A stretch of 28,674 nucleotides of DNA from positions 1-28,674 of IMG/VR virus record IMGVR_UViG_3300017963_000643; one strand, written 5' to 3'. The DNA is from a virus. This document shows, piece after piece, positions 1 to 14,140 of the stretch; positions within the stretch are counted from its first letter, which is position 1; each line of letters starts with the position of its first letter. The notes beneath the pieces are model-generated. The model was not told the DNA's origin. It was given only the letters and a program-made list of their open reading frames with translations, and made no database searches. The translations under genes were made by a program, and so were the position numbers.

Positions 1-2239
1 CGATCCCCGAGTACGCGTAGTGGTCGTTGTCGCCGTCGTCCCGCACCCAGAAGTACACCCGGCCGGAATTGGTAAACTGCAAAGACACCCGGTTCCTAGT
101 CGCACTCGCAGTCCCGGTGTTGCCGCTGATGCTGAACGCGAACATGTCCGCCAAGCCGATGTCCCCGCTGTCGGTATAGTGGCACTTGACCCGCAGTCTG
201 AACGAAAGCTTGTCCGGCTCGCCGGAGTCCCCGATATCGTACGGCAGCACGCAACTGCCCTGGTCGTCGCAGATCTCCATGGTCAGGTTGTCGGCCGCCC
301 TGGTGACCTGCCCGGTGGTGGTGTCGATGGGACTGGTGGGGAACAAGCCGGTCTCCACCTGCACGTTCCAAAACCAAGTGTTCACCGTACTGGCATCGCC
401 GGCAAACGTGTCGTCCCCGTCGTCCTCCGCAGACTGGATCCTGATGGCATTCGATCCCGCCGACGCGGTGTAGCTAATCCAAACCCTATACCAGTCACCA
501 CACACCGGCTCGATCCCTCCGCCGGTGCTCAACGTCCCAACCCTGCCCTCGGCCACGTTGAAGTACCCGTCTTCGCCGCTGGTGCTGTCGTGGATCCTCA
601 CCCAGTCGAAGTCCCCAGCCGCCGCGTACACGGATATCGTGTAGTAGGTGGCCGACATCGACACCGACTGCTCGACATAATGGGCCAGGTTGTTGGCGTC
701 CGCCACCAAACCGTCCGCAATGGACGTTCCCTTGGGGTCGGCCTTCCCGTCGGACGTGATGCTGGTCAGGTTGGTGGAAGTCCACGTAGTCCCCAAGGCG
801 CTGGCCTGCAGCACCCGATTGGTTGCCGAGTTCTCGATCAGGATTCCACCCGCACCGACCCGAGGAACCCGAGCGGCCACGTCTTGCAACTTGCTGCTGA
901 TCGCTTGGGCGCAACCCGCCTGGAAAAAATTCACCGCGATGGTGGCCCGAACAAACGCCCAAGCCGAATACACAGATCCGTGTCCCGAACCCATGCCCCA
1001 AACCCGCTCCCTCTGATCAGCAAGCTGATCGCTGTCCAAAGCTTGGGCAGTCAATTTCATCAAAGCAATGTCCCCGTCCCAATAGCTGTTCGGCGTGTTG
1101 TATGCACCGACGTACATAGTGCGCGACCCATCGATCCCGAACGTGGACACGTCCACACCGGTGCCCGCGTTCCCGTTCACGTACACGGTCGCGGTGTCGC
1201 TGTCCCTGACGATCTGCACCAGGTGCCAATACCCGGCCGCCAGGTTGGTGTTCAGCGGGGTGGCCGAACTTCCAGACTTGCTGTACCTGGCCCGGATCTG
1301 GGCGCTGGTCTCGTACACCCACAGCCCGTCGTTGTCCTCCAAGCTGTGGCAGAAGATCGTGTCGGTGCTCGTGTCGTCGCTGTAGACATACATGGTCAGC
1401 GAGTGATCCCCGTCAAACACGTTCATGCTGGCGTGGTGAGCCACGCTGTAATACTCAGAGCTGGCGTTGACGAAACTCCTGGCCGGCAGCCGGTTGCCCC
1501 AGTACTCCAACCCGGCGAACGCCTCGCCAGGGCTGTTGGTAGGCGCCAGGTCGTGGGCCGGCTTGGTCACACTCTGGTCCGCCGGGTTGCGAAACGCACC
1601 CATGTTCTGCCGGTAGCGGTCGTTCTCCACCACCTGGGCCCCATAGAAGTACGCCTGCCCGGTAGCGGTCCCGCTCTCCCCCGGGTACAACAGCAAACCG
1701 ATGGCCCCGACTCCGGTCCCCTCCCCGCTCACGCTCACACGCTGCCAGTTACCGGTGGCCGCGACGGTCTCCGTGTCCACCGCGCCCACCCCGTTCTCGT
1801 TCAGGACCACCGTCACGTTGTGCGCAGTGTCCACCCGCACCCAGACGGACCCGGTATGGGTGTTGGCGGTGGTGCTCGCGGAATACAAATGCCGGTGGTC
1901 GGTGTTGGCCCCTCCGGTGTTGTCCAGCAAGTCGGCATCTACCGTGCCGTCCACCGGGTTAGCCCACTGGTCGGCAGTCACCGCGCAAGTGCCGCTCTGG
2001 GTCCAGTCGTCGAACTCGGTGCGGTCCGTCAACAGGTTCTCCCCGCTCCAGTCGATCAGGTTGCCGGACGTATCCACCGTGCCGTCGTAGCAGAAAACCA
2101 TCAACGGATCGTCCTGCAGGCACTCGTATCGCGCGCTCTCGAAACTCGCCTGCAAACCGGCCGCCTTGACGCCGGTGCATGCCAGGACCAGCCCCAGCAC
2201 CATGACAGCGGCATAAAATGCCAGGTCGCGCCAGCGCAT
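1..2239 (-). CDS. LamG/carbohydrate-binding fibre-like protein with signal peptide (3' end cut by window edge)
   Basis: About 746 codons are open from ATG 2239 to the left edge with no stop, so the C-terminus lies outside the window. Residues 1-27 (MRWRDLAFYAAVMVLG then VLACTGVKAA) look like a Sec signal peptide with an AxA-type site near residue 26. A beta-rich region resembling carbohydrate-binding modules follows (about 55-200). A LamG/concanavalin-like domain spans about 265-390 (cores SLTMYVYSDD and YWHLVQIVRDSDTATVYVNG), and a second CBM-like region about 465-625 ends in VQVETG. Similar domain mixes occur in phage fibre and receptor-binding proteins; an adhesive or glycan-binding role is my inference. 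The start overlaps the upstream stop as TGATG, so translation is probably coupled. A signal peptide is odd for a virion protein assembled in the cytoplasm. Confidence 0.8.
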   Translation of the reverse strand, partial: MRWRDLAFYAAVMVLGLVLACTGVKAAGLQASFESARYECLQDDPLMVFCYDGTVDTSGNLIDWSGENLLTDRTEFDDWTQSGTCAVTADQWANPVDGTVDADLLDNTGGANTDHRHLYSASTTANTHTGSVWVRVDTAHNVTVVLNENGVGAVDTETVAATGNWQRVSVSGEGTGVGAIGLLLYPGESGTATGQAYFYGAQVVENDRYRQNMGAFRNPADQSVTKPAHDLAPTNSPGEAFAGLEYWGNRLPARSFVNASSEYYSVAHHASMNVFDGDHSLTMYVYSDDTSTDTIFCHSLEDNDGLWVYETSAQIRARYSKSGSSATPLNTNLAAGYWHLVQIVRDSDTATVYVNGNAGTGVDVSTFGIDGSRTMYVGAYNTPNSYWDGDIALMKLTAQALDSDQLADQRERVWGMGSGHGSVYSAWAFVRATIAVNFFQAGCAQAISSKLQDVAARVPRVGAGGILIENSATNRVLQASALGTTWTSTNLTSITSDGKADPKGTSIADGLVADANNLAHYVEQSVSMSATYYTISVYAAAGDFDWVRIHDSTSGEDGYFNVAEGRVGTLSTGGGIEPVCGDWYRVWISYTASAGSNAIRIQSAEDDGDDTFAGDASTVNTWFWNVQVETGLFPTSPIDTTTGQVTRAADNLTMEICDDQGSCVLPYDIGDSGEPDKLSFRLRVKCHYTDSGDIGLADMFAFSISGNTGTASATRNRVSLQFTNSGRVYFWVRDDGDNDHYAYSGI

Positions 2240-2970
2240 CAGCGGATCCTCCCCCCGGACAGGGACTTGAACTTCTTCCGGGGCTGAAGCTCCCCCTCGA
2301 CGACGTTCTTGTAATTCAGGTGCCGCCGGCCCGCCCACCCATGAGGCATCACGATCCTGTCCTTCTTCCGGTCCACCCTGGGATCGCACACGCTCACTAG
2401 GGCGCCCTCGACCACCGCCCGCAACACCCGGCACTTCCACTTGGGCACCTCTGCTTCGAGCGGGAAGAACTCCGCCATGCTGGACGCCACGTACTCCCTG
2501 CAATCGGCGGCCGTCACACAGGCAGCCCCCTGCAGCATCACGTTCCACATCAACCTGCCCTCGTGCTCGCTGCCGTCTATGGACACCGGGCAGCTCACCT
2601 GGCCGAACGCGTACGCCAGCTCCAACACAGCCGGTACCGGCCTTCTGCAGGGAGAGTTCTTGACGGTCACCGGCACTGCGTCCAGAATCACATTGCACAC
2701 CGCATCCCGGGGTACCGTAGGAACGTTCACCGCATCCCCGATAGGCGACGGCAGCACCGGGGCGTCCGTTGCCGGCTTGCCGCCCACAATGCGAACGTAG
2801 TGCCCCGCCGGCGTATTGAACAATTGATCGGCGGTCTCCGCGGGAGACGGTTCGATCGCATCCGCCGGATCGGCCTCGATCAAGTCCTGGGCGCTGGAGG
2901 TATACGCGCACAAGACAGCCACCGCCAAGTAGACGACCACAATGCCTAAAATCTCGAAGATTGTTTTCAT
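2239..2970 (-). CDS. Exported Cys-rich protein of unknown function
   Basis: 243 residues; I do not recognise the family. Residues 1-28 (MKTIFEILGIVVVYLAVAVL, then CAYTSSAQ) form a signal peptide or N-terminal membrane anchor, with a possible cleavage site after SSA. Beyond it lie seven cysteines (C92, C108, C127, C151, C157, C180, C195), which fits an oxidising compartment and disulfides. A Pro/Ala/Glu-rich linker (about 30-55) follows the signal region and the C-terminus is basic. The gene follows the 222-residue membrane-anchored protein after a 36-nt gap, and its TGA shares a base with the ATG of the fibre-like gene, so the two are probably made together. Partner, chaperone or surface factor for the fibre-like protein are all possible. 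Confidence 0.72.
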   Translation of the reverse strand: MKTIFEILGIVVVYLAVAVLCAYTSSAQDLIEADPADAIEPSPAETADQLFNTPAGHYVRIVGGKPATDAPVLPSPIGDAVNVPTVPRDAVCNVILDAVPVTVKNSPCRRPVPAVLELAYAFGQVSCPVSIDGSEHEGRLMWNVMLQGAACVTAADCREYVASSMAEFFPLEAEVPKWKCRVLRAVVEGALVSVCDPRVDRKKDRIVMPHGWAGRRHLNYKNVVEGELQPRKKFKSLSGGRIR

Positions 2971-3006
2971 TTGTATTTGCCTTTCCGCTTCAGACTTCCG
3001 CCGACG

Positions 3007-3675
3007 TTAGTTTTTGTCCGTGTGCTCGTACCAATCGATCTCAAGCACCGCCCTGATGTCATTGGTGCCGGATGTCAAGTTCACCTGGTACTTGGTGTTC
3101 TGCAGCAATACAAACTCGCTGTCTCCACGCCTCTCCGCACCCACCTTGTTCCTGCCACCACCGAACTCATACTGCAACAAAACAGTGGCCCCGGTGCCCA
3201 CAGTTGCCCCCTGGGTCAACTCCCCCGGGTTGGTGTCGTCGGTGCTGATCAGCGTCGACGCGTTGGCGCTGTTCCTGTTGTGGTTATACGGAGTCAGATT
3301 GCTGCCGCCGGACACTCCACCAGTCGGCGCCTCCTGAAGCTCGAACGTCGCCTCCCCGGTGGTGCTCACATAGAACAACATGTGCGCCCACTTGGTCGTG
3401 TTGGGGGTGGTGAACGATATCCTCAAAGGGTTGTCGTCCAGATCGCTGGTGGACAGGTGGGCGGTGTACGACGAACCCCCGTGCACCTCGGTGTGCTCGT
3501 ACTCGATCACCTTTATGGCTTCTGTACTATCGTCTATCCGCATCGGCTTGGGAGTGCCGTCCGAAATCAGCCCTAGCACGGTGACAGACGACTGCTGCGC
3601 CGCCGCCATAAGCACGATCACCGCCGCGATTAAGATCACCCCGCGCGCTACAAACTTTAGCGTGTCCTTGATCAT
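3007..3675 (-). CDS. Membrane-anchored member of a phage structural-protein family (C-terminal WYEHTD)
   Basis: 222 residues from ATG 3675, chosen because TTAGGAGCC lies just upstream; the frame extends further 5' but that part overlaps the preceding gene. Residues 9-26 are hydrophobic (VARGVILIAAVIVLMAAA), a membrane anchor or signal peptide. The rest matches a beta-rich family I recognise from many tailed phages: an EYEHTEVHGGSSY segment (58-70), the TPYNHNRNSANAS stretch (128-140), a hydrophilic loop, and a closing beta strand ending in EIDWYEHTDKN (212-222). Family members are usually annotated as hypothetical virion proteins; their exact role is unknown to me. An N-terminal membrane segment is unusual for the family and parallels its three neighbours. 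The SD overlaps the TAG stop of the preceding gene. Confidence 0.75.
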   Translation of the reverse strand: MIKDTLKFVARGVILIAAVIVLMAAAQQSSVTVLGLISDGTPKPMRIDDSTEAIKVIEYEHTEVHGGSSYTAHLSTSDLDDNPLRISFTTPNTTKWAHMLFYVSTTGEATFELQEAPTGGVSGGSNLTPYNHNRNSANASTLISTDDTNPGELTQGATVGTGATVLLQYEFGGGRNKVGAERRGDSEFVLLQNTKYQVNLTSGTNDIRAVLEIDWYEHTDKN

Positions 3676-3686
3676 GACCGAGGCTC

Positions 3687-5006
3687 CTAATTCTTGTTGC
3701 CCACGATCTTGCAGTCGGCCGTGGTGTCGTCCCCACCGCCGGTAGCCGCGACCACCCGCACGTACGGGTACGCCACGGCAGACGCCTCGTAGCACACCCC
3801 CACCTGCCCGCTAGTCAGCGCATCGCAAGCAGTCGAAGTCAGACTGGTCCAGGTGGTCTCGTCGTAGCTCACCTGCACATCCACATCGCTGAACGCGTCT
3901 CCGCTTCCACCGCCCGCATTCTTGACCATCACGGTCCAATTGGGCAGGTCCAGCACGTAAGTGCTCGCACACACCACGTCAGTGCCGGCATCGTCCACCG
4001 CAGTGCCGGTGGTGGCCGCCGGATCGTAAACGGCCACCTCCTCCTTCTTGACCTTCTGCCAGCCGTTGCCGCTATCGTAGCTGTTGTGCCAGGTCTCGAT
4101 CCCGACCTGCAGGCCGCCGTTGGCGGTAGACCTGGCCATGTCCAGGGTCGCCCCGTTGCTCAGGTACATCACGCCGGTGGTGAACAAACCGTTCTGGGTG
4201 AACGCCAGTCCGTCCGCCTGGGTGGTCACCACGTCCGCCGGCGACCAGGTGGAACCGTCCCACCCGTAGACCAAGCCGAAATTGTAAGCCGCGTCAACCG
4301 TGGCCGCCAGGGTGCCTCCGTCACCAGTCTCTCCCTGCAATCTCGACCAAGAAGCATCATCCGTCTGGTACACGTGTCCGAAAGCCGCCCGTCTGGGAGC
4401 CTCCGAGGTGGTGGCCACTGCGTCACTGTCCAGCGCGTCCCCGGTGTCCCTGCTCCAATCGCCGTTGGTCTCGTCGTAGAAGAAGTTGAACGACCTCGAG
4501 TCCGGGGCGTACGTGGTGGCCGCAATATTGTCCGCGTTCAGCTGACCCCCCGCGTACCTCCGGTGGGTGGTACCGTCCCAGTAGTACCCGACCGATATGG
4601 TCTCCAGCGCGAAGTCCGCGGTCATGGTCAGGGTGGCAGCTGGGATGTCCAGGTGGACTCCCTCCCACCGGTTGGTGCTGGTATCCAGGCCTAACACTGG
4701 GGACCACGTCAGCAGTCCATTGGGTATGGCCCCGATCCCTCCTCCGTACACCGTGGCGCTGTTGATCACGTCGCCAAGCAGAAGGCTATCACCGTCCAGC
4801 AGCCGGAAGTACATGGGGGTGGCGGGTCCGACGCCTGCGTTCATCTGGGCGCACGTGCGCCACCTGGACCCGGCCACGGTAGGGGCAGTCTCGCTGTCGC
4901 TGCACATAACAGGGTAGCCGATGTGCTGGTTCTGCGCGCTTGCGGGTGCTGCTACGAAAAGCATTGCCGCCAGGAACGCGGCGATCAGAATCGTCAGTCT
5001 CCTCAT
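3687..5006 (-). CDS. Exported repeat protein, probable phage appendage or surface protein
   Basis: 439 residues. Residues 1-24 are a textbook Sec signal peptide (RR at 2-3, hydrophobic core, APASA with cleavage before Q25). The middle carries four related short repeats about 35 residues apart: GYYWDGTTHRRY (140-151), FFYDETNGDWSR (175-187), HVYQTDDASWSR (211-222) and VYGWDGSTWS (246-255). This aromatic-Asp-Gly-Trp pattern is common in phage fibre-like and other structural proteins. The C-terminal part (about 345-439) is beta-rich with SYDETTWTSL and YPYVRVVAATGG, as in virion decoration domains. GAGGAGG precedes the ATG. Function is inferred: a displayed beta protein, perhaps glycan-binding. 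It begins the run of four genes with signal peptides or anchors. Confidence 0.75.
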   Translation of the reverse strand: MRRLTILIAAFLAAMLFVAAPASAQNQHIGYPVMCSDSETAPTVAGSRWRTCAQMNAGVGPATPMYFRLLDGDSLLLGDVINSATVYGGGIGAIPNGLLTWSPVLGLDTSTNRWEGVHLDIPAATLTMTADFALETISVGYYWDGTTHRRYAGGQLNADNIAATTYAPDSRSFNFFYDETNGDWSRDTGDALDSDAVATTSEAPRRAAFGHVYQTDDASWSRLQGETGDGGTLAATVDAAYNFGLVYGWDGSTWSPADVVTTQADGLAFTQNGLFTTGVMYLSNGATLDMARSTANGGLQVGIETWHNSYDSGNGWQKVKKEEVAVYDPAATTGTAVDDAGTDVVCASTYVLDLPNWTVMVKNAGGGSGDAFSDVDVQVSYDETTWTSLTSTACDALTSGQVGVCYEASAVAYPYVRVVAATGGGDDTTADCKIVGNKN

Positions 5007-5890: not shown

Positions 5891-7117
5891 CTACGCGGTC
5901 ACCGTCACCGTCGCGTAGAAGTTGCCGTTCTTGCAGTAGGTGGCGTACCGCGACATGATGGCCTTGGCCGGACACAGGGTCCGATCCCAGATGGTGGGGG
6001 ACGCCCACAACGGGATGTACGGCGCGTACACGTACCCGGTGTACAGCCAGTTGTCGCTCTTGTGGCCAACAATGGCCTGGTCAGTGGTGAAGAACGGATC
6101 GTGGTAGACCTTGTACTGCTCCGCCAGCACCCCGAACAGGTTGGGGCCAGTCTTGATGTTGGCGAACCCGGCGGTGGTGTCCAGCTGACGGAAGCTGTTG
6201 AGCTTGCGCAGCCGGTTGGCAAAGCTGGCCCCGCACAGGATGAAGTTCCCGTGCTCGTAGACGCGGGTGAAGATCTGGTTGTCGGCATCGCAAATCGCGT
6301 CGAAGATGCTCTCGTTGAACTGCCGCGGGGTCGCGTTGGCCCACCCCGACGCCGCGAGCGGTTGGGTGCTGGACCAGTTGGTGTTGGTGGTGGCACACGC
6401 CACCACGCCATTGATCAGAACCCGGTTGATCTCGCGCTCGATCTGCATGCCGAGCATCCGGGTCATCTCACCCTCCAGGTTCAACCCGTACTGCGAGTTG
6501 AGGTCCTGCTGGGCCTCGGGGGACCACTGGGCCATCAGCTTCTTGGTCACGGCGGTCAGGGTGGCCGCGGTGAGCTCCAGGCACAGGTGGTTCGGCTCCT
6601 GGCACTCGCCAGGGCTATCCGAGTAGTCCGGATCCTCGTTGGGGTAGATGCTGGTGCCCGAGCTGTAGGTCTCACCCGAGCTGCAGTAGGTGAAGTCCAA
6701 GGTGTGAGCCCGGCCGGTGGGGCCCTTCATGGGCTGGACGCTGACGATCTCGTTGGCGAACAACCGGGGCCAGATCAGCCGGATCAAGGGCAGCGCCCAG
6801 GTGGTGAAGGTGGCGATGTTGGCGGTGGTGGTCTGCTCCATCCAGCTGTTGGCCACCGCGTACGCCTCGCGGGTGAAGTTGTCCATCAAGAACTCGGTCT
6901 GCCACTTGATGCGCTCCAGGTCGCCCTCACTGATCACACCGCCGGCGATGAGCTGCTTCAGCTTCTTGTCCTCGGCCAGACCAAGGCCCTCGTCCTCGTT
7001 GAAGTACGGAGCCCACCGGTCGGAACGCTGCTTGTTCTCCACCATCCAGGGGGCTACGTGCTCGCTCAGCATGTTCTCAGCCTGCATGCTGGCCAACTGC
7101 TCGTTCAAATGTTCCAT
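5891..7117 (-). CDS. Major capsid protein, T4 gp23-like
   Basis: 408 residues with a strong SD (AAAAGGAGAG before ATG). Forms the icosahedral head shell. Gp23-type signatures are visible: a hydrophobic strand and turn at 109-135 (LPLIRLIWPRLFANEIVSVQ then PMKGPTG), then the spine-helix region at 192-235 (KKLMAQWSPEAQQDL, then YGLNLEGEM and IEREINRVLI), and a C-terminal region with YEHGNFILCG. T4 gp23 is longer (521 residues) and loses its first 65 residues to the gp21 protease after an I/LxE site. Here I62-S63-E64 stands at nearly the same place, so similar maturation is likely. The protein has eight cysteines. It follows the protease-scaffold gene and is closed by a terminator, as expected for a very highly expressed gene. 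Confidence 0.9.
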   Translation of the reverse strand: MEHLNEQLASMQAENMLSEHVAPWMVENKQRSDRWAPYFNEDEGLGLAEDKKLKQLIAGGVISEGDLERIKWQTEFLMDNFTREAYAVANSWMEQTTTANIATFTTWALPLIRLIWPRLFANEIVSVQPMKGPTGRAHTLDFTYCSSGETYSSGTSIYPNEDPDYSDSPGECQEPNHLCLELTAATLTAVTKKLMAQWSPEAQQDLNSQYGLNLEGEMTRMLGMQIEREINRVLINGVVACATTNTNWSSTQPLAASGWANATPRQFNESIFDAICDADNQIFTRVYEHGNFILCGASFANRLRKLNSFRQLDTTAGFANIKTGPNLFGVLAEQYKVYHDPFFTTDQAIVGHKSDNWLYTGYVYAPYIPLWASPTIWDRTLCPAKAIMSRYATYCKNGNFYATVTVTA

Positions 7118-7238: not shown

Positions 7239-8612
7239 CTAAGAGACCAGGTTCTTGGTCAGGGTGACAGACCTGTTCTGCTGCTTCTTGCCCTTGTCCT
7301 GCTCGTCCAGATCTCCGGTGTTACCACCGGTGGGCTTTCCCTTCTCCAGCAGCTGCTCTCCACCCAAGGAGATGATGTGGGCCTTCTCTTCCTCGATCAC
7401 CTCGTTGACGGTCTTCTCCAGGTCCTCGGCCTCGGTGAGGTCCTTGTCCTTCAGCCGCAGGCGCACCCGGCCAGCCAGGTGCTCGGCACAATTCTCCAGG
7501 AGCTGATCCACCTGCTCCTCGACCGACTCCTTGGTCTCGGCGTCCTTCTTCTCCTGCTCCTGCTTGTCGACCTTGGCCTTCAGCTCGGAGTTCTCCTTCT
7601 CCACCTTCTCCAGGCGCTGGACCAGGTCGGAGATCACCTTGTCGGCCTCCTCCTTGGTCTCGGCCTTGGGGGCCGGCGCCGCCATCTTCACACCGCAGGC
7701 GGGACAGAACTTGCTGTTCTTGGGAACCACACCCTCGCACTCGGGGCACTTGGCCTCTTCCAGCTCCTCCTCCTCGTCCAGCTCCTCCTCTTCCGCGGAA
7801 AGCCGCTCGCGCATCTTATCTGCGAACGCGTCGCTCTCCATGTACTTGGAGACCATCTCGGGCAGGTTCTTCTCGAACTCTGCCTGGGCCTCGCTCTTGG
7901 CGGTCTCGACGGCCTTTTCAACCACCGCCTTGACCGCGTCACTCTCCAGAACACCCTTCATCAGGGCCTCGTTCTTGAGTACGTCGTCCAACTTGATTTC
8001 CATCTCCTCCTCCTCTGGGTTTTCGTCCTCGTTGTAGTCGGCGACGTGAGCATCGCCGATTGCAGGGCCGTTCACGCTGTCGTAGGTCTGCAGGCTGGCG
8101 TCGTCGTTCACCTCATCGAACTCCCGGCCGTCCCAGTCCTTGTTCAGAGACCAGTCGGGATGCTGATCGTTCATCCTCTTGGCCGTGACCTCGCCACGCG
8201 CCCTGGAGCTGAAGCCGATCTGTGCACCCGCCCGAATCTGGACCGCCAGGTCCTCGCCCGCCTGGGTTCCCATGACATCGATCCTGCCCATCACCTCGCC
8301 TTGCTCGTTTATCTCCAGTCCACGGACGATAAACGCGTTCTGGCGAATCGAAGGACCTCCCCTTGTGGGAGAAGGGTGGTCCGTCTCACCTATCATACCC
8401 CCGGTCTCCAGCAGACCGGACTTGGTCACCCGAGCGATCTCCTTCTGGTACCACTTGCGGGTGTACAACCGGCCGTTGCTGGTGATCCTGCCTGCATGGG
8501 CGAACTTGCCGCGGGCCTGCATAATCACGCCCTTGGGAAGCTGGACACCCTCTTGCAGGTCCTTCTCGACAATCCACAGGCTCTGGTCCTGCTGCTCGGT
8601 CAGGAACTTCAT
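7239..8612 (-). CDS. Prohead protease (gp21-like, S77) fused to acidic scaffold with zinc ribbon
   Basis: 457 residues from ATG 8612, which forms TGATG with the preceding stop and has GGAGGAGACG upstream; a GTG one codon earlier is the alternative. The N-terminal domain (about 1-190) is a gp21-type serine protease: GETDHPS holds the catalytic His (H79) and GFSSRARG the Ser (S135 or S136). The remainder is a long, highly charged, mostly helical region typical of a gp22-like core/scaffold, rich in Glu and Lys with coiled-coil stretches (about 320-365). A four-Cys zinc ribbon (CPEC at 289-292, CPAC at 303-306) interrupts it. The protease cleaves scaffold and capsid during head maturation. In T4 the protease and scaffold are separate genes; the fusion and the ribbon are notable here. 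Confidence 0.85.
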   Translation of the reverse strand: MKFLTEQQDQSLWIVEKDLQEGVQLPKGVIMQARGKFAHAGRITSNGRLYTRKWYQKEIARVTKSGLLETGGMIGETDHPSPTRGGPSIRQNAFIVRGLEINEQGEVMGRIDVMGTQAGEDLAVQIRAGAQIGFSSRARGEVTAKRMNDQHPDWSLNKDWDGREFDEVNDDASLQTYDSVNGPAIGDAHVADYNEDENPEEEEMEIKLDDVLKNEALMKGVLESDAVKAVVEKAVETAKSEAQAEFEKNLPEMVSKYMESDAFADKMRERLSAEEEELDEEEELEEAKCPECEGVVPKNSKFCPACGVKMAAPAPKAETKEEADKVISDLVQRLEKVEKENSELKAKVDKQEQEKKDAETKESVEEQVDQLLENCAEHLAGRVRLRLKDKDLTEAEDLEKTVNEVIEEEKAHIISLGGEQLLEKGKPTGGNTGDLDEQDKGKKQQNRSVTLTKNLVS

Positions 8613-9133
8613 CACGTCTCCTCCCTCTTGAACCTGATGTTCTTGCCAAGCTTCTGGCCCAGCGCCTTGAGCACCGCCTTCTGGTCGGTCTTGTTCAGCA
8701 CGTCGAACAGGCCGCCCAGGGCAGCGTCGATGGCCTTCTTGTCCTTACCGCTGTTGCGGCGACCGGCCTCTATGATCTGCCGGACTATCCTGTCGCGGTT
8801 GCGCTTCTCCGCGAACTCTGCCCTGACTCGCGCCATGACTCGCTCCTTATGGTCCTTCTTGTAGAACTTACTCCGGACGGAAACACCGTGGTCCTTCAGG
8901 TGGATGTTCTTCTTGGCGATCCACTCAGAGCCAGCCCTCTCGTACATGAGCTTGAACGCGGCCAGCGCATGCTCCACCGCGTCCCTCTTCTCGAACCCCG
9001 CGTCGTCCATCAGGTCCTCGACCAACCCGACCAGAACCTTGGCCTGGTGCAGCTTCAACTTGCACCCGTCCACCTCCACCGGGGCTCCCCAGTTCTTGAT
9101 AGACTCCAGACTGAACCAAGACATTTTGCTCAT
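8612..9133 (-). CDS. Hypothetical head-region protein
   Basis: 173 residues from ATG 9133, which overlaps the upstream stop as ATGA; the frame is open further 5' only within the neighbour. Not recognised. The N-terminus (MSKMSWFSLESIKNWG) leads into a predicted helical bundle with EVDGCKLKLHQAKVLVGLVE and AVEHALAAFKLMYERAGSEW, then a strongly basic middle (KKDHKERVMARVRAEFAEKR) and a C-terminal helix. The stop overlaps the protease-scaffold start, so production is tied to head assembly. A core or internal head protein, or a completion factor, is possible. The 29-bp repeated motif (9141-9169) ends 7 nt upstream of its start. Confidence 0.65.
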   Translation of the reverse strand: MSKMSWFSLESIKNWGAPVEVDGCKLKLHQAKVLVGLVEDLMDDAGFEKRDAVEHALAAFKLMYERAGSEWIAKKNIHLKDHGVSVRSKFYKKDHKERVMARVRAEFAEKRNRDRIVRQIIEAGRRNSGKDKKAIDAALGGLFDVLNKTDQKAVLKALGQKLGKNIRFKREET

Positions 9134-9958: not shown

Positions 9959-10211
9959 TGGCTTCCTCCTCCCTGAGAATTGTTACCGCCTTGCTCAAGA
10001 ACGACTTGATGTTGAACGTGGTGGTCTGCTTCAGCGGGGTGGCCGTGTCGCTCACTGTGATCTTGCCATTGCGCCAGTCCACCCCGGTCACCAGGAACGT
10101 GGTCCCGTCCCGGTCCACGTGCTTGCCCTTCAGCTTGTGCAGCTTGCCCACCTGGGCCGCATACACCTTGCCCTTGATCCTCTTCAACAGCCTGGCAGCC
10201 AGGTTATCCAC
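9942..10211 (-). CDS. Small hypothetical protein (GTG start)
   Basis: 89 residues from GTG 10211, overlapping the TAA of the rmlB-like gene in GTGGATAA and preceded by GGGGGAGG. It begins (M)DNLAARLLKRIKGKVYAAQV, basic and helical, followed by a beta-rich part with GKHVDRDGTTFLVTGVDW and GKITVSDTATPL that looks like a small barrel. It ends in a helix (FLSKAVTILREEE). Not recognised. Coupled on both sides within the head module. Confidence 0.6.
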   Translation of the reverse strand: MDNLAARLLKRIKGKVYAAQVGKLHKLKGKHVDRDGTTFLVTGVDWRNGKITVSDTATPLKQTTTFNIKSFLSKAVTILREEEANVGQE

Positions 10212-11208
10212 GCTGACCCTCCCCCGGCACGATCTGCCAGTCGTCCGGAACCACCTTGTCCTCCCACCACCACCGGTTGTCCCTGTACCACTCCACCGTG
10301 GAGGTGAGCCCAGTACCGAACCTGATCTCCGGCCTCCAGCCCAGCTTGGCGATCTTGCCGCAGTCGATGGCGTACCGGCGGTCGTTCCCAGGACGGTCGC
10401 CCACCCGGTCGAAGTGCCCAGCCGGCAGGCCCAGCTGATCATTGACCAGGTCCACCACGTCCTCGTTACTCAGCCCGTACCCGGTGCCGATGTTGTACAC
10501 CTCACAACCCCCGTCCAGCATCACCTTCTCGATGGCCCGGGTGTTGTCGTCCACGTGGATCCACTCCCGCACGTTCCTCCCGTCCCCGTGCAAGGGGAAC
10601 CTCCTGCCCTCCATGCCGTAGGTGATGGCCTTGGGGATCAGCTTCTCGGGGTACTGGTACGGGCCGTAGTTGTTGCTGCTGCGCGTGATGGCAACGTCCA
10701 CCCCGTAGGTGCGACGGTACGCCATGCACATCAGGTCCCCGCTCATCTTGGCGGCCGCGTACGTGTTGCTGGGACTGGGTGGGTCGTCCTCCCTGCACGG
10801 TCGTACCCCCCGGGGAATGTCCCCGTACACCTCGTCGGTGCTAACGTACACCATCCGGCAGCCCCTGCGCCTGGCGGCCTCCAGGACGTTGAACGTACCG
10901 GCCACGTTGGTGCTTATGAACGGACCACCGTCCACGATGCTGTGGTCCACATGGGACTCGGCAGCACAGTGGACTATTACATCGGGCTTGAACCTATCCA
11001 CCGCGTCCAGCACCGCCAGACCGCTGGCCACATCCAACCGGCAGAACTGGTACCTGGACATGTTGTGGGCCCACACCTCGTTCAGGTTACGCCTGTCCGC
11101 CGCGTAGGTCATCAGGTCCACACCCACCACGTGGTAGTCCTGGGAGAGCAGCCGCCTGGTAAGAGCGGACCCGATGAAGCCCAGGTTGCCTGTCACCATC
11201 ACCCGCAC
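10204..11208 (-). CDS. dTDP-glucose 4,6-dehydratase family (RmlB-like)
   Basis: 334 residues from GTG 11208 (AAGGAG at a good distance); the frame is open further 5' but that part lies inside the neighbour. An extended short-chain dehydrogenase: NAD-binding VTGNLGFIGS (G7, G10, G13), YVSTDEVYG with T124-D125-E126, and YAAAK with Y150 and K154. The RmlB hallmark SSNNYGPYQYPEKLIP lies at 177-192. In this family these residues convert dTDP-glucose to the 4-keto-6-deoxy sugar used for rhamnose and related glycans; close relatives use other nucleotide sugars, so the exact substrate is uncertain. It is slightly short compared with the usual 340-360 residues but keeps all key motifs. Embedded by tight coupling among head genes, with no other sugar gene in view. 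A role in altering host surface glycan or decorating virion proteins is inference. Confidence 0.9.
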   Translation of the reverse strand: MRVMVTGNLGFIGSALTRRLLSQDYHVVGVDLMTYAADRRNLNEVWAHNMSRYQFCRLDVASGLAVLDAVDRFKPDVIVHCAAESHVDHSIVDGGPFISTNVAGTFNVLEAARRRGCRMVYVSTDEVYGDIPRGVRPCREDDPPSPSNTYAAAKMSGDLMCMAYRRTYGVDVAITRSSNNYGPYQYPEKLIPKAITYGMEGRRFPLHGDGRNVREWIHVDDNTRAIEKVMLDGGCEVYNIGTGYGLSNEDVVDLVNDQLGLPAGHFDRVGDRPGNDRRYAIDCGKIAKLGWRPEIRFGTGLTSTVEWYRDNRWWWEDKVVPDDWQIVPGEGQRG

Positions 11209-11934: not shown

Positions 11935-12128
11935 CACTTCTTCTCCTTCAGTAACTTCGTCACCGCTAGGTTAACCTTGTTTCTGTCTTCCGGTGACATC
12001 TGCAACATCAACAACGCCTCTGCATTGCCAAAATTCAACTCACCCGCCTTGACCGCCTTCCTGGCAACCCGGATCGCTGCGTCGGGATCGTCCCGCTTCA
12101 ATTTCAAAAGGTCATCCGCGTAACTCAT
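11934..12128 (-). CDS. 64-residue acidic/basic helical protein, possible partner of the MuF-peptidase
   Basis: Starts at ATG 12128 in an ATGA overlap with the MuF-metallopeptidase stop, with GGAGGGGC as SD. All predicted helix (DDLLKLKRDDPDAAIRVARK and NAEALLMLQMSPEDRNKV), no Cys, ending in KKLLKEKK-type basic residues. A 60-nt sample is 52 % GC, close to the peptidase half of the preceding gene and well below the flanks, so the two look co-inherited. A small gene directly behind a polymorphic effector domain is the usual place for an immunity or chaperone protein. That role is inference; I recognise no family. Confidence 0.6.
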   Translation of the reverse strand: MSYADDLLKLKRDDPDAAIRVARKAVKAGELNFGNAEALLMLQMSPEDRNKVNLAVTKLLKEKK

Positions 12129-14140
12129 GTCGCCCCTCCGTAGTAAATCTTCTTCGATCCGCCACTCTCGACAACCCACTCACTGAATACGTCGTCCAGT
12201 TCCTTCTTGAACTTCTTGTGAAGGTCGGCTGCTGCCTTTTTAGAAAGTCCCTTCGTGTACGAGGCAGGTAATTCAACCTCGTCCACGAACGACTTGACCA
12301 ACCGTTCCCATTTCCAGATCTCTTTACCGGGACCCATCTGCTTCTGGAACGCGTCGGTAATCACACTCATCACCTCCACGAATTCTTTGTGCTTCACCCT
12401 GACACTGAAGATCATAGGTGGTAGCCCCCCACCCTCTACTGAACCATGGATCTTCAAACCCGCCTTCTTCAATGCTATCCCCACCCTGTTCGCAATACGA
12501 TCTATATAGTCACCGTACGACGTGAATTGAGCCATCACATCGGCATTGATGTTGTACGTCTTCTTGATCAGTCTCATGCTTATCAAATCAGTTGCTGCTT
12601 CCTCCATTACGACACCCAACTCCTGATACCCCCAACCAAACCCACGGTTATATGAATGCACAGTCTCATGTACCAACGTATGCATCGAACTGATTGAATC
12701 CCGTGCACGGTCGCCTTGCAAAAACTTAGATGCTTCTTTCGCAGTGCCAGGATACATCTTGATCGTATCCGTCGCCGGCTCATATTGTGCAACGGCAGAA
12801 TGCTTCGTCCCCGTCTTGATATTTCTGGACACCCCCTTGTTGAACTCGTCCACAAAAATAGTCGAGCGTTCATTGGACATGCCAGTACCCTCGAACAACC
12901 GATCCAACTGCTCACGAAGTTCCGCCTGTTCCGCAGCCGACAGTTCCGACTTGCTCATCTTGTCCAACAACTCGGCGGTTCGTTTGTCGTCTAAGACTGC
13001 CGCCTTGTTCGTTTTCCTGGCCTTCCGCTTCAGCGCCTTCCCGGACAGCACCTCCCCGGTGGCCCGCTCGTACTCGCCCAACATGGACACCAGTTGCTTC
13101 CTCTCCACCATACCCAAGCTCTTTCCGTCTATCCCGTGCCGCATCAGATCCCTGACCGCCCGCCGGCCCACGTGCCTGCCTTCCAGCACATCGTCCACGC
13201 TCCAGATCGGCACGTCGTAGATCCCCTCCTTGGTAAGGAACTCGTTCAACTCGGCATTAGCCGCCTTTCTGGCCCGGATAGCCCCCTTGAGCTTTTCCCC
13301 GTCCGCCGTGGCTATCACCCGGCGGTTGGTGTTGATCTTCATGCGCAGGTCCTGGATGTACTTCTGCTCGTCCTCGGTGGGCAGGCGCATGCCTTTAGGG
13401 GGCGCCGGTCGCCGAAGCATCTCCACCAGACTCTGGTCCTTCTTCATGTCCAAGTCCCGCAGCTCCTGCACCTGCTGCTTGGACAGCTTGCCGGGCTGCA
13501 CGATCAGGCTGCACTCGCAGTTGCTCAGACACCTGGTGGCACCCGCCCTGGGAGTGGTCGGCAGGTCGGCCTTGGTATACGGGCTGTTGGAGGCCAGCAC
13601 CAGGCAGTCAGGGCAGTGCTCCGCGTGGCCCAGCTTCCACACGAACTGGCTGTCCATCGGAGCCGCCTCTACCCGAGCGTGGTCCCCTATCCCCTGCAGG
13701 GTCTGGGAATACATACCCACCCGCTGCTGCCTGGGCATCCGCAGGGTGTCGTTGTCGATATCGGTGCCGAACGCCCGGGCGTACTTCATCTCCTCGGCGG
13801 TGGCCCTCTTCAGGTACTCCAGGTCTCCCTCGTCCAGAGGGCGGCCCAGGTTGGCCTTGTACACCTGGGTGAAGTTGGTCTGGATGGCGTCCTGCATCCT
13901 GGTGTCGTAGGTGGCCAGGTTGATCTTGCCCGACTGCAGGTCCCCGGTGATCCCATCCAGCTGCTTGAAGTACCTGCCCTGCAGAGCGCTGGTATCCGCG
14001 GCCTCCATCCGGTAGGCTCGAACACCGGCCTGGTCGTCCACCCGAGCAATGGCCCGATCCACGGAGGCCAACAGTGCCGCCAGCTCCATGTCCGTCATAG
14101 CCTCCAGGGACTCCCTGGTTATATCTTGGGCTGCCCCCAT
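12125..14140 (-). CDS. MuF-type minor head protein fused to a C-terminal HExxH metallopeptidase
   Basis: 671 residues; SD GAAGAGGAGAGG. The N-terminal half is a phage head morphogenesis (Mu gpF/SPP1 gp7-like) domain with the typical GHAEHCPDC motif (H175, C176, C179) and CLSNCECSL (C204, C208, C210) about 172-212. MuF proteins bind near the portal and are packaged in the head. The C-terminal part from about residue 375 is different: it carries LVHETVHSYN with H491, E492 and H495, and MEEAATDL with E513/E514 as a likely third ligand, the pattern of a zinc metallopeptidase. GC falls from about 67-72 % to about 47-52 % at the same junction (near 13015), so the peptidase domain is probably a later acquisition. 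MuF proteins with swapped C-terminal toxin domains are known; the target here is unknown. Confidence 0.88.
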   Translation of the reverse strand: MGAAQDITRESLEAMTDMELAALLASVDRAIARVDDQAGVRAYRMEAADTSALQGRYFKQLDGITGDLQSGKINLATYDTRMQDAIQTNFTQVYKANLGRPLDEGDLEYLKRATAEEMKYARAFGTDIDNDTLRMPRQQRVGMYSQTLQGIGDHARVEAAPMDSQFVWKLGHAEHCPDCLVLASNSPYTKADLPTTPRAGATRCLSNCECSLIVQPGKLSKQQVQELRDLDMKKDQSLVEMLRRPAPPKGMRLPTEDEQKYIQDLRMKINTNRRVIATADGEKLKGAIRARKAANAELNEFLTKEGIYDVPIWSVDDVLEGRHVGRRAVRDLMRHGIDGKSLGMVERKQLVSMLGEYERATGEVLSGKALKRKARKTNKAAVLDDKRTAELLDKMSKSELSAAEQAELREQLDRLFEGTGMSNERSTIFVDEFNKGVSRNIKTGTKHSAVAQYEPATDTIKMYPGTAKEASKFLQGDRARDSISSMHTLVHETVHSYNRGFGWGYQELGVVMEEAATDLISMRLIKKTYNINADVMAQFTSYGDYIDRIANRVGIALKKAGLKIHGSVEGGGLPPMIFSVRVKHKEFVEVMSVITDAFQKQMGPGKEIWKWERLVKSFVDEVELPASYTKGLSKKAAADLHKKFKKELDDVFSEWVVESGGSKKIYYGGAT

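Follow-up and report, generated by a model that had tools for sequence, protein, structure and literature searches.

The stretch of DNA analysed here, referred to as the window, is the 28,674-base IMG/VR virus fragment IMGVR_UViG_3300017963_000643. It belongs to an uncultured T4-like (gp23) phage and encodes homologues of the Gp23 capsid protein, the Gp20 portal protein and the Gp21 protease, all of which score above the Pfam cutoffs (PF07068, PF07230 and PF03420). The window genes discussed below are all encoded on the minus strand. The gene for the major capsid protein of the Gp23 family (5891..7117; PF07068, E 5.3e-54) is followed by P0005 (5049..5747), an unsignalled protein without assigned function that is syntenic in two related contigs, L003 and L010. 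Next comes a run of four tightly packed genes with good ribosome-binding sites at all four starts. P0004 (3687..5006; 439 aa) is a putatively exported protein with an N-terminal cysteine motif and a beta-rich C-terminal domain. P0003 (3007..3675; 222 aa) belongs to the phrog_5335 family, and its predicted all-beta domain is preceded by a signal or anchor. P0002 (2239..2970; 243 aa) is cysteine-rich, putatively exported and of no known family. P0001 (1..2239), the start of which overlaps the P0002 stop, runs off the window and comprises at least 746 aa with a signal peptide, a LamG domain and a GTA head-spike-fibre domain. A previous sequence-only reading had described these genes as a signalled run behind the capsid gene. 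The run of four is indeed present, but it does not follow the capsid gene directly, since the unsignalled gene at 5747-5049 intervenes.

The same virus is represented in metagenome 3300017971 by a 71.5-kb contig (L002/G001) with a 100% identical capsid protein. This contig extends the opposite way and stops just past the capsid gene, before the signalled cassette. It encodes a tape measure protein and large adjoining genes in tail-tip position, about 45 kb from the cassette, none of which carries a signal. Thus, the window virus has an ordinary, unsignalled tail module, to which the cassette is an addition.

Predicted export signals of the four proteins

In all four proteins, the n-region is basic and leads into a hydrophobic core, whose best 12-residue Kyte-Doolittle mean is 2.8-3.4; a plausible cleavage site for signal peptidase follows. 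The predicted signal peptide of P0004 (4935..5006) would be cleaved at ASA/Q25, and the corresponding sites in its orthologues read VVA/APYP and ADA/KVGYP. In P0003, the hydrophobic signal or anchor (3598..3675) is retained in the relatives P0011 and P0019 and has a possible site at AAA/Q27; as this site is weak, the N-terminus could be an uncleaved anchor. The rule-based scan assigned a signal peptide to P0002 (2890..2970; SSA/Q28), and seven cysteines lie past it. The signal peptide of P0001 (2162..2239; MRWRDLAFYAAVMVLGLVLACTGVKA/AGLQASF, cleavage at VKA/A27) aligns with the sites of the orthologues P0017 and P0030, both of which are signalled, the three sites being VKA/AGLQASF, CMA/GGLNASF and VYA/SGLHASF. 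These results bear out the earlier claims of signals or anchors starting at 2239, 2970, 3675 and 5006, of AxA-type sites including ASA before Q25, and of one product with seven cysteines after its signal.

Among the 42 minus-strand genes of the window, the rule-based scan flagged five, namely these four and one small membrane protein, and the probability of four adjacent flagged genes arising by chance is about 3e-4. Composition-preserving shuffles of the N-termini led to about 1 of 42 genes being flagged by chance; the signal pattern alone is therefore only moderately strong, and the shuffles are a weak test. The decisive evidence, for which we accept the signals as real, is their conservation across other phages. 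The n-, h- and c-regions expected for Sec and signal peptidase I are kept in the orthologues, more weakly so for P0003, and sequence comparison thereby confirmed that the predicted Sec-type signals of P0001 to P0004 are real and conserved.

We also considered two other explanations of these N-termini. P0001 might be a lipoprotein, since LVLA-C21 fits a classical lipobox, yet this context is not kept in P0017 and P0030, unlike the signal-peptidase I site. An artefact of wrongly called starts is ruled out by the good ribosome-binding sites together with the retention of the signals in relatives.

The cassette in other phages

The same gene families recur in similar order in five further contigs, whose capsid genes range from related to quite different. 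The sequence-only reading had suggested searching metagenomic phages for the cluster, and this search revealed a signal in every cassette gene, about 26 over six contigs (one signal in L053 was assigned by visual inspection), of which two contigs share one metagenome and lineage and two, L003 and L013, share three genes of recent common origin. Gene calls in the relatives were made within this analysis. Nearly all of these genes show the basic n-region, the core and the AxA site across unrelated folds, and the proteins are mostly only 25-40% identical between contigs. In L003 (capsid protein 64% identical), four signalled genes lie past the capsid gene, including a P0003 relative (33% identity, E 8e-14), a LamG protein and a P0004 relative with a short match over the mature N-terminus (E 7e-7). 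The third T4-like contig, L010/L016 (capsid protein 60% identical), has five signalled genes in a row, in the order P0004-like, beta-helix-like, P0002-like, P0001-like and an 862-residue protein. L017 and L053, which have another head type, carry five and four signalled genes, and the podovirus-like contig L013 carries four. The P0002 orthologues P0016 and P0029 (30-40% identity) are signalled as well, the P0004 orthologues are P0014 (40%) and P0010, and the sites of the 862-residue family read ATA/QQEYGQ and SKA/DSYGAA.

Small one-helix membrane proteins, holin-like or other, flank the cassette in three contigs (L003 12012-12491, L010 9951-10169 and L017 12061-12519); the gene precedes the cassette in L003 and L010 and follows it in L017. 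A holin link as a defining part of the cassette was dismissed, as the window has no such gene beside it.

Relatives outside the cassette lack the signals. Around gp23 of six cultured T4-like phages, 180 genes (at least 150 residues) gave two rule hits, which were not adjacent and both fell in one unsignalled tail-sheath-stabiliser family, so that credible signal proteins numbered zero of 180. Likewise, all 12 same-domain relatives outside the cassette are without a signal: six share parts of P0001, five belong to the P0003 family and the last to the 862-residue family. The unsignalled P0003-family members (Vibrio phages 172P1 and Artemius, MEP301, L011 and L012) start directly at the shared domain, and the signal therefore looks like an addition. 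They sit in structural gene blocks, in L012 right behind a capsid-like gene.

The cassette occurs in three head lineages. In L017, the terminase, portal and head protein are of a different kind and baseplate genes are present, and L013 has yet another terminase and head protein. Moreover, the otherwise mostly unrelated G002 (L003) and G003 (L013) have 1.7 kb of the cassette in common, with 84% DNA identity. Taken together, the shared piece and the three head lineages indicate that the cassette moves horizontally, and its spread over these lineages fits a host-directed role. Within the 1.7-kb piece, the three shared genes have kept their signals almost intact, and the P0003-family gene differs mainly at synonymous codons. 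The LamG gene (L003 14352-15701, L013 6976-7710) has 62 non-synonymous versus 50 synonymous differing codons, which hints at diversifying selection on the ligand-binding part of the predicted LamG protein. Amino acid change in LamG beside static signals is what a variable ligand of LamG would lead one to expect. In two scans, the P0001 and P0026 families had no match among 84,980 bacterial and archaeal genomes, which thus pointed to no host or prophage carrier.

Domains and possible role of the signalled proteins

P0001 contains a LamG (concanavalin A-like) domain (1022..1456, residues 262-406; PF13385, E 2.6e-11) and a GTA head spike fibre domain (293..841, residues 467-649; NF048003) that also corresponds to the phrog_5939 tail protein. 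The NF048003 scores of P0001, P0017 and P0030 (148.7, 164.5 and 143.8 bits) greatly exceed the curated cutoff (36 bits), and the P0001 family profile retrieved the RcGTA head spike fibre from the PDB (6tb9, E 4.2e-31). This fibre (Rcc01080) thus shares its domain with all three proteins; like P0001, it is encoded by a late gene near the capsid gene and carries a capsule-binding module. P0001 differs in having a Sec signal at the N-terminus, where the RcGTA fibre binds the capsid base, in its added LamG domain and doubled length, and in its place among signalled proteins. The phrog_5939 tail proteins (RcapMu58 and others) match the P0001 domain over about 230 residues, but none of six relatives is signalled. 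P0003 matches phrog_5335 (E 1.3e-7, positions 15-184 of 191), a family without assigned function whose members have the full domain but start at it without a signal. The earlier remark that one product belongs to a structural family normally devoid of such a segment thus applies to the families of both P0001 and P0003.

For the remaining proteins the comparisons yielded less. P0002 had no match in Pfam, PHROGs, NCBIfam or PADLOC, its family profile found no hit in the PDB, and its predicted structure (pLDDT 48) was unusable. The prediction for P0003 (mean pLDDT 50) was all-beta with only non-specific jelly-roll matches and pointed to no function. P0004 has no known-family match, and its C-terminal domain recurs in P0027 (E 4e-19). 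P0015 and P0028 are beta-helix-like with a weak likeness to NosD-type repeats. No catalytic motif was recognised in the cassette proteins.

Tailed phages are assumed to produce their spikes and fibres in the cytoplasm and to mount them there. In the open-access literature searched, we found no tailed phage whose spike- or fibre-like proteins form a Sec-signalled cassette, and no precedent for exported virion proteins of tailed phages. The domains of the cassette are known, and their predicted export appears to be new. A survey of DGR target proteins found the phage ones to be without the signal peptides present on bacterial ones (PMC6199706). That unrelated spike- and fibre-like proteins all have export signals in a transferable cassette suggests that selection has repeatedly favoured sending them out.

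Comparison of the sequences demonstrates the signals and their conservation, the mobility of the cassette and the presence of spike and lectin domains. As to the role, we tentatively regard it as most likely that a mobile late cassette begins with these four genes and encodes spike- or fibre-like, probably glycan-binding proteins that are exported via Sec and would mask receptors. Late in infection, these proteins would reach the periplasm via the Sec machinery, or be freed at lysis, and would then bind host surface polysaccharide. As free spike-like lectins they could occupy capsule or LPS on the infected cell, its neighbours or debris and thereby keep competing phages, or the progeny of the phage itself, from adsorbing there, while the conventional unsignalled tail-tip proteins encoded elsewhere would do the adsorption. 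Glycan binding, already proposed in the sequence-only reading, is plausible from the LamG and spike-fibre domains. Capsular polysaccharide is the ligand of the RcGTA spike fibre, whose residues 2-10 attach it to the capsid base (PMC10218006); in P0001 the signal sits at this anchoring N-terminal end. According to earlier work cited there, gene transfer to cells is blocked when RcGTA tail fibre is added, presumably through blockage of a receptor (PMC10218006), and free fibre proteins can therefore act as receptor maskers. Two points weigh against the masking reading: it does not explain how the outer membrane would be crossed before lysis, and P0001 and P0003 have relatives outside the cassette that are, or are presumed to be, structural proteins. 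No conserved lipobox, autotransporter or other secretion feature was found in the cassette.

Some known phage proteins act at the cell surface. T5 Llp, phi80 Cor and TP-J34 Ltp are phage-encoded, exported superinfection-exclusion proteins acting at the envelope; in each case this is one small protein, a lipoprotein or an anchored one, that is usually expressed early or from a prophage, whereas here four or five large fibre-like proteins are encoded in a late operon. The PADLOC library gave no match, which does not speak against superinfection exclusion as a candidate role. PblA and PblB of Streptococcus phage SM1, a Gram-positive prophage, are phage tail-type proteins on the bacterial surface. 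To our knowledge they are without Sec signals, in contrast to the cassette proteins.

The structural kinship of P0001 and P0003 leads to a different explanation, according to which the proteins are virion decorations that fold in the periplasm, possibly with disulfides, and join capsids or tails once lysis mixes the compartments. The head-spike domain of P0001, the location in a late head operon near the capsid gene, the P0003 relatives in structural gene blocks, and the cysteine content of P0002 and P0026/P0031 (2.4-3.4%, partly conserved) speak for it. However, the signal takes the place of the N-terminal residues that attach the RcGTA fibre to its base (PMC10218006), and no base protein was identified here to which the mature end might bind. 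Furthermore, cassette proteins contain 1.7% cysteine versus 1.6% in other proteins of the window virus, with enrichment only in G005, and as most of these genomes show no elevated cysteine content the general disulfide argument is weakened. We consider virion decoration rather unlikely, and know of no tailed phage that decorates its virions after export. A broader version, in which several head lineages would complete their particles, or add to them, outside the cytoplasm and Sec-exported, oxidised spikes would coat virions or host surfaces at lysis, seems unlikely; such two-compartment assembly, if true, would be undescribed for tailed phages. Assembly at the membrane, another idea of the sequence-only reading, found no support, as the head genes are ordinary T4-like or other tailed-phage genes and the tail genes are unsignalled.

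Weak cleavage sites in P0003 and some relatives, the beta-helix-like, weakly NosD-like P0015 and P0028 and the LamG domains would also agree with display on the surface or in a matrix, where partly anchored adhesins or polysaccharide-degrading beta-helix proteins would affect aggregation, biofilm or capsule release. Most members, however, have good cleavage sites, and neither a catalytic motif nor an outer-membrane anchor was recognised, which leaves surface display slightly less likely still. It is most improbable that the hydrophobic N-termini are segments for virion assembly or oligomerisation and not Sec signals. Some tail proteins do start hydrophobic (Sc-Yong805-1), but nearly all of the roughly 26 genes combine n-region, core and AxA site, the cleavage position is conserved, and same-domain relatives have no such N-termini. 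The choice between virion parts added after lysis and free lectins controlling adsorption has thus become a testable question, and whichever answer proves right will matter for phage competition and for the annotation of metagenomic structural genes.

Further genes of the late head region

Three other minus-strand genes of the window deserve mention. The Gp21-type prohead protease (7239-8615) is extended at its C-terminus by a long segment containing a zinc-ribbon-like CxxC...CxxC motif, which matches PF12773 at E 9e-5, below the cutoff. Unusual for a T4-like protease, this motif is also found in the protease relative of L003 (8623-9981, the G002 counterpart). By the portal region, a 671-residue protein (12125-14140) matches phrog_24776 in its N-terminal part; its C-terminal part carries an HExxH motif (HTLVHETVHSYNRGFGWGYQ), a possible metallopeptidase domain in a head-associated protein. 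Finally, a gene for an NDP-sugar 4,6-dehydratase/epimerase (10204-11205) lies inside the late head region and is also present in the L003 relative (33072-34028 of G002); it could be tied to sugar modification of the virion or of the host surface.
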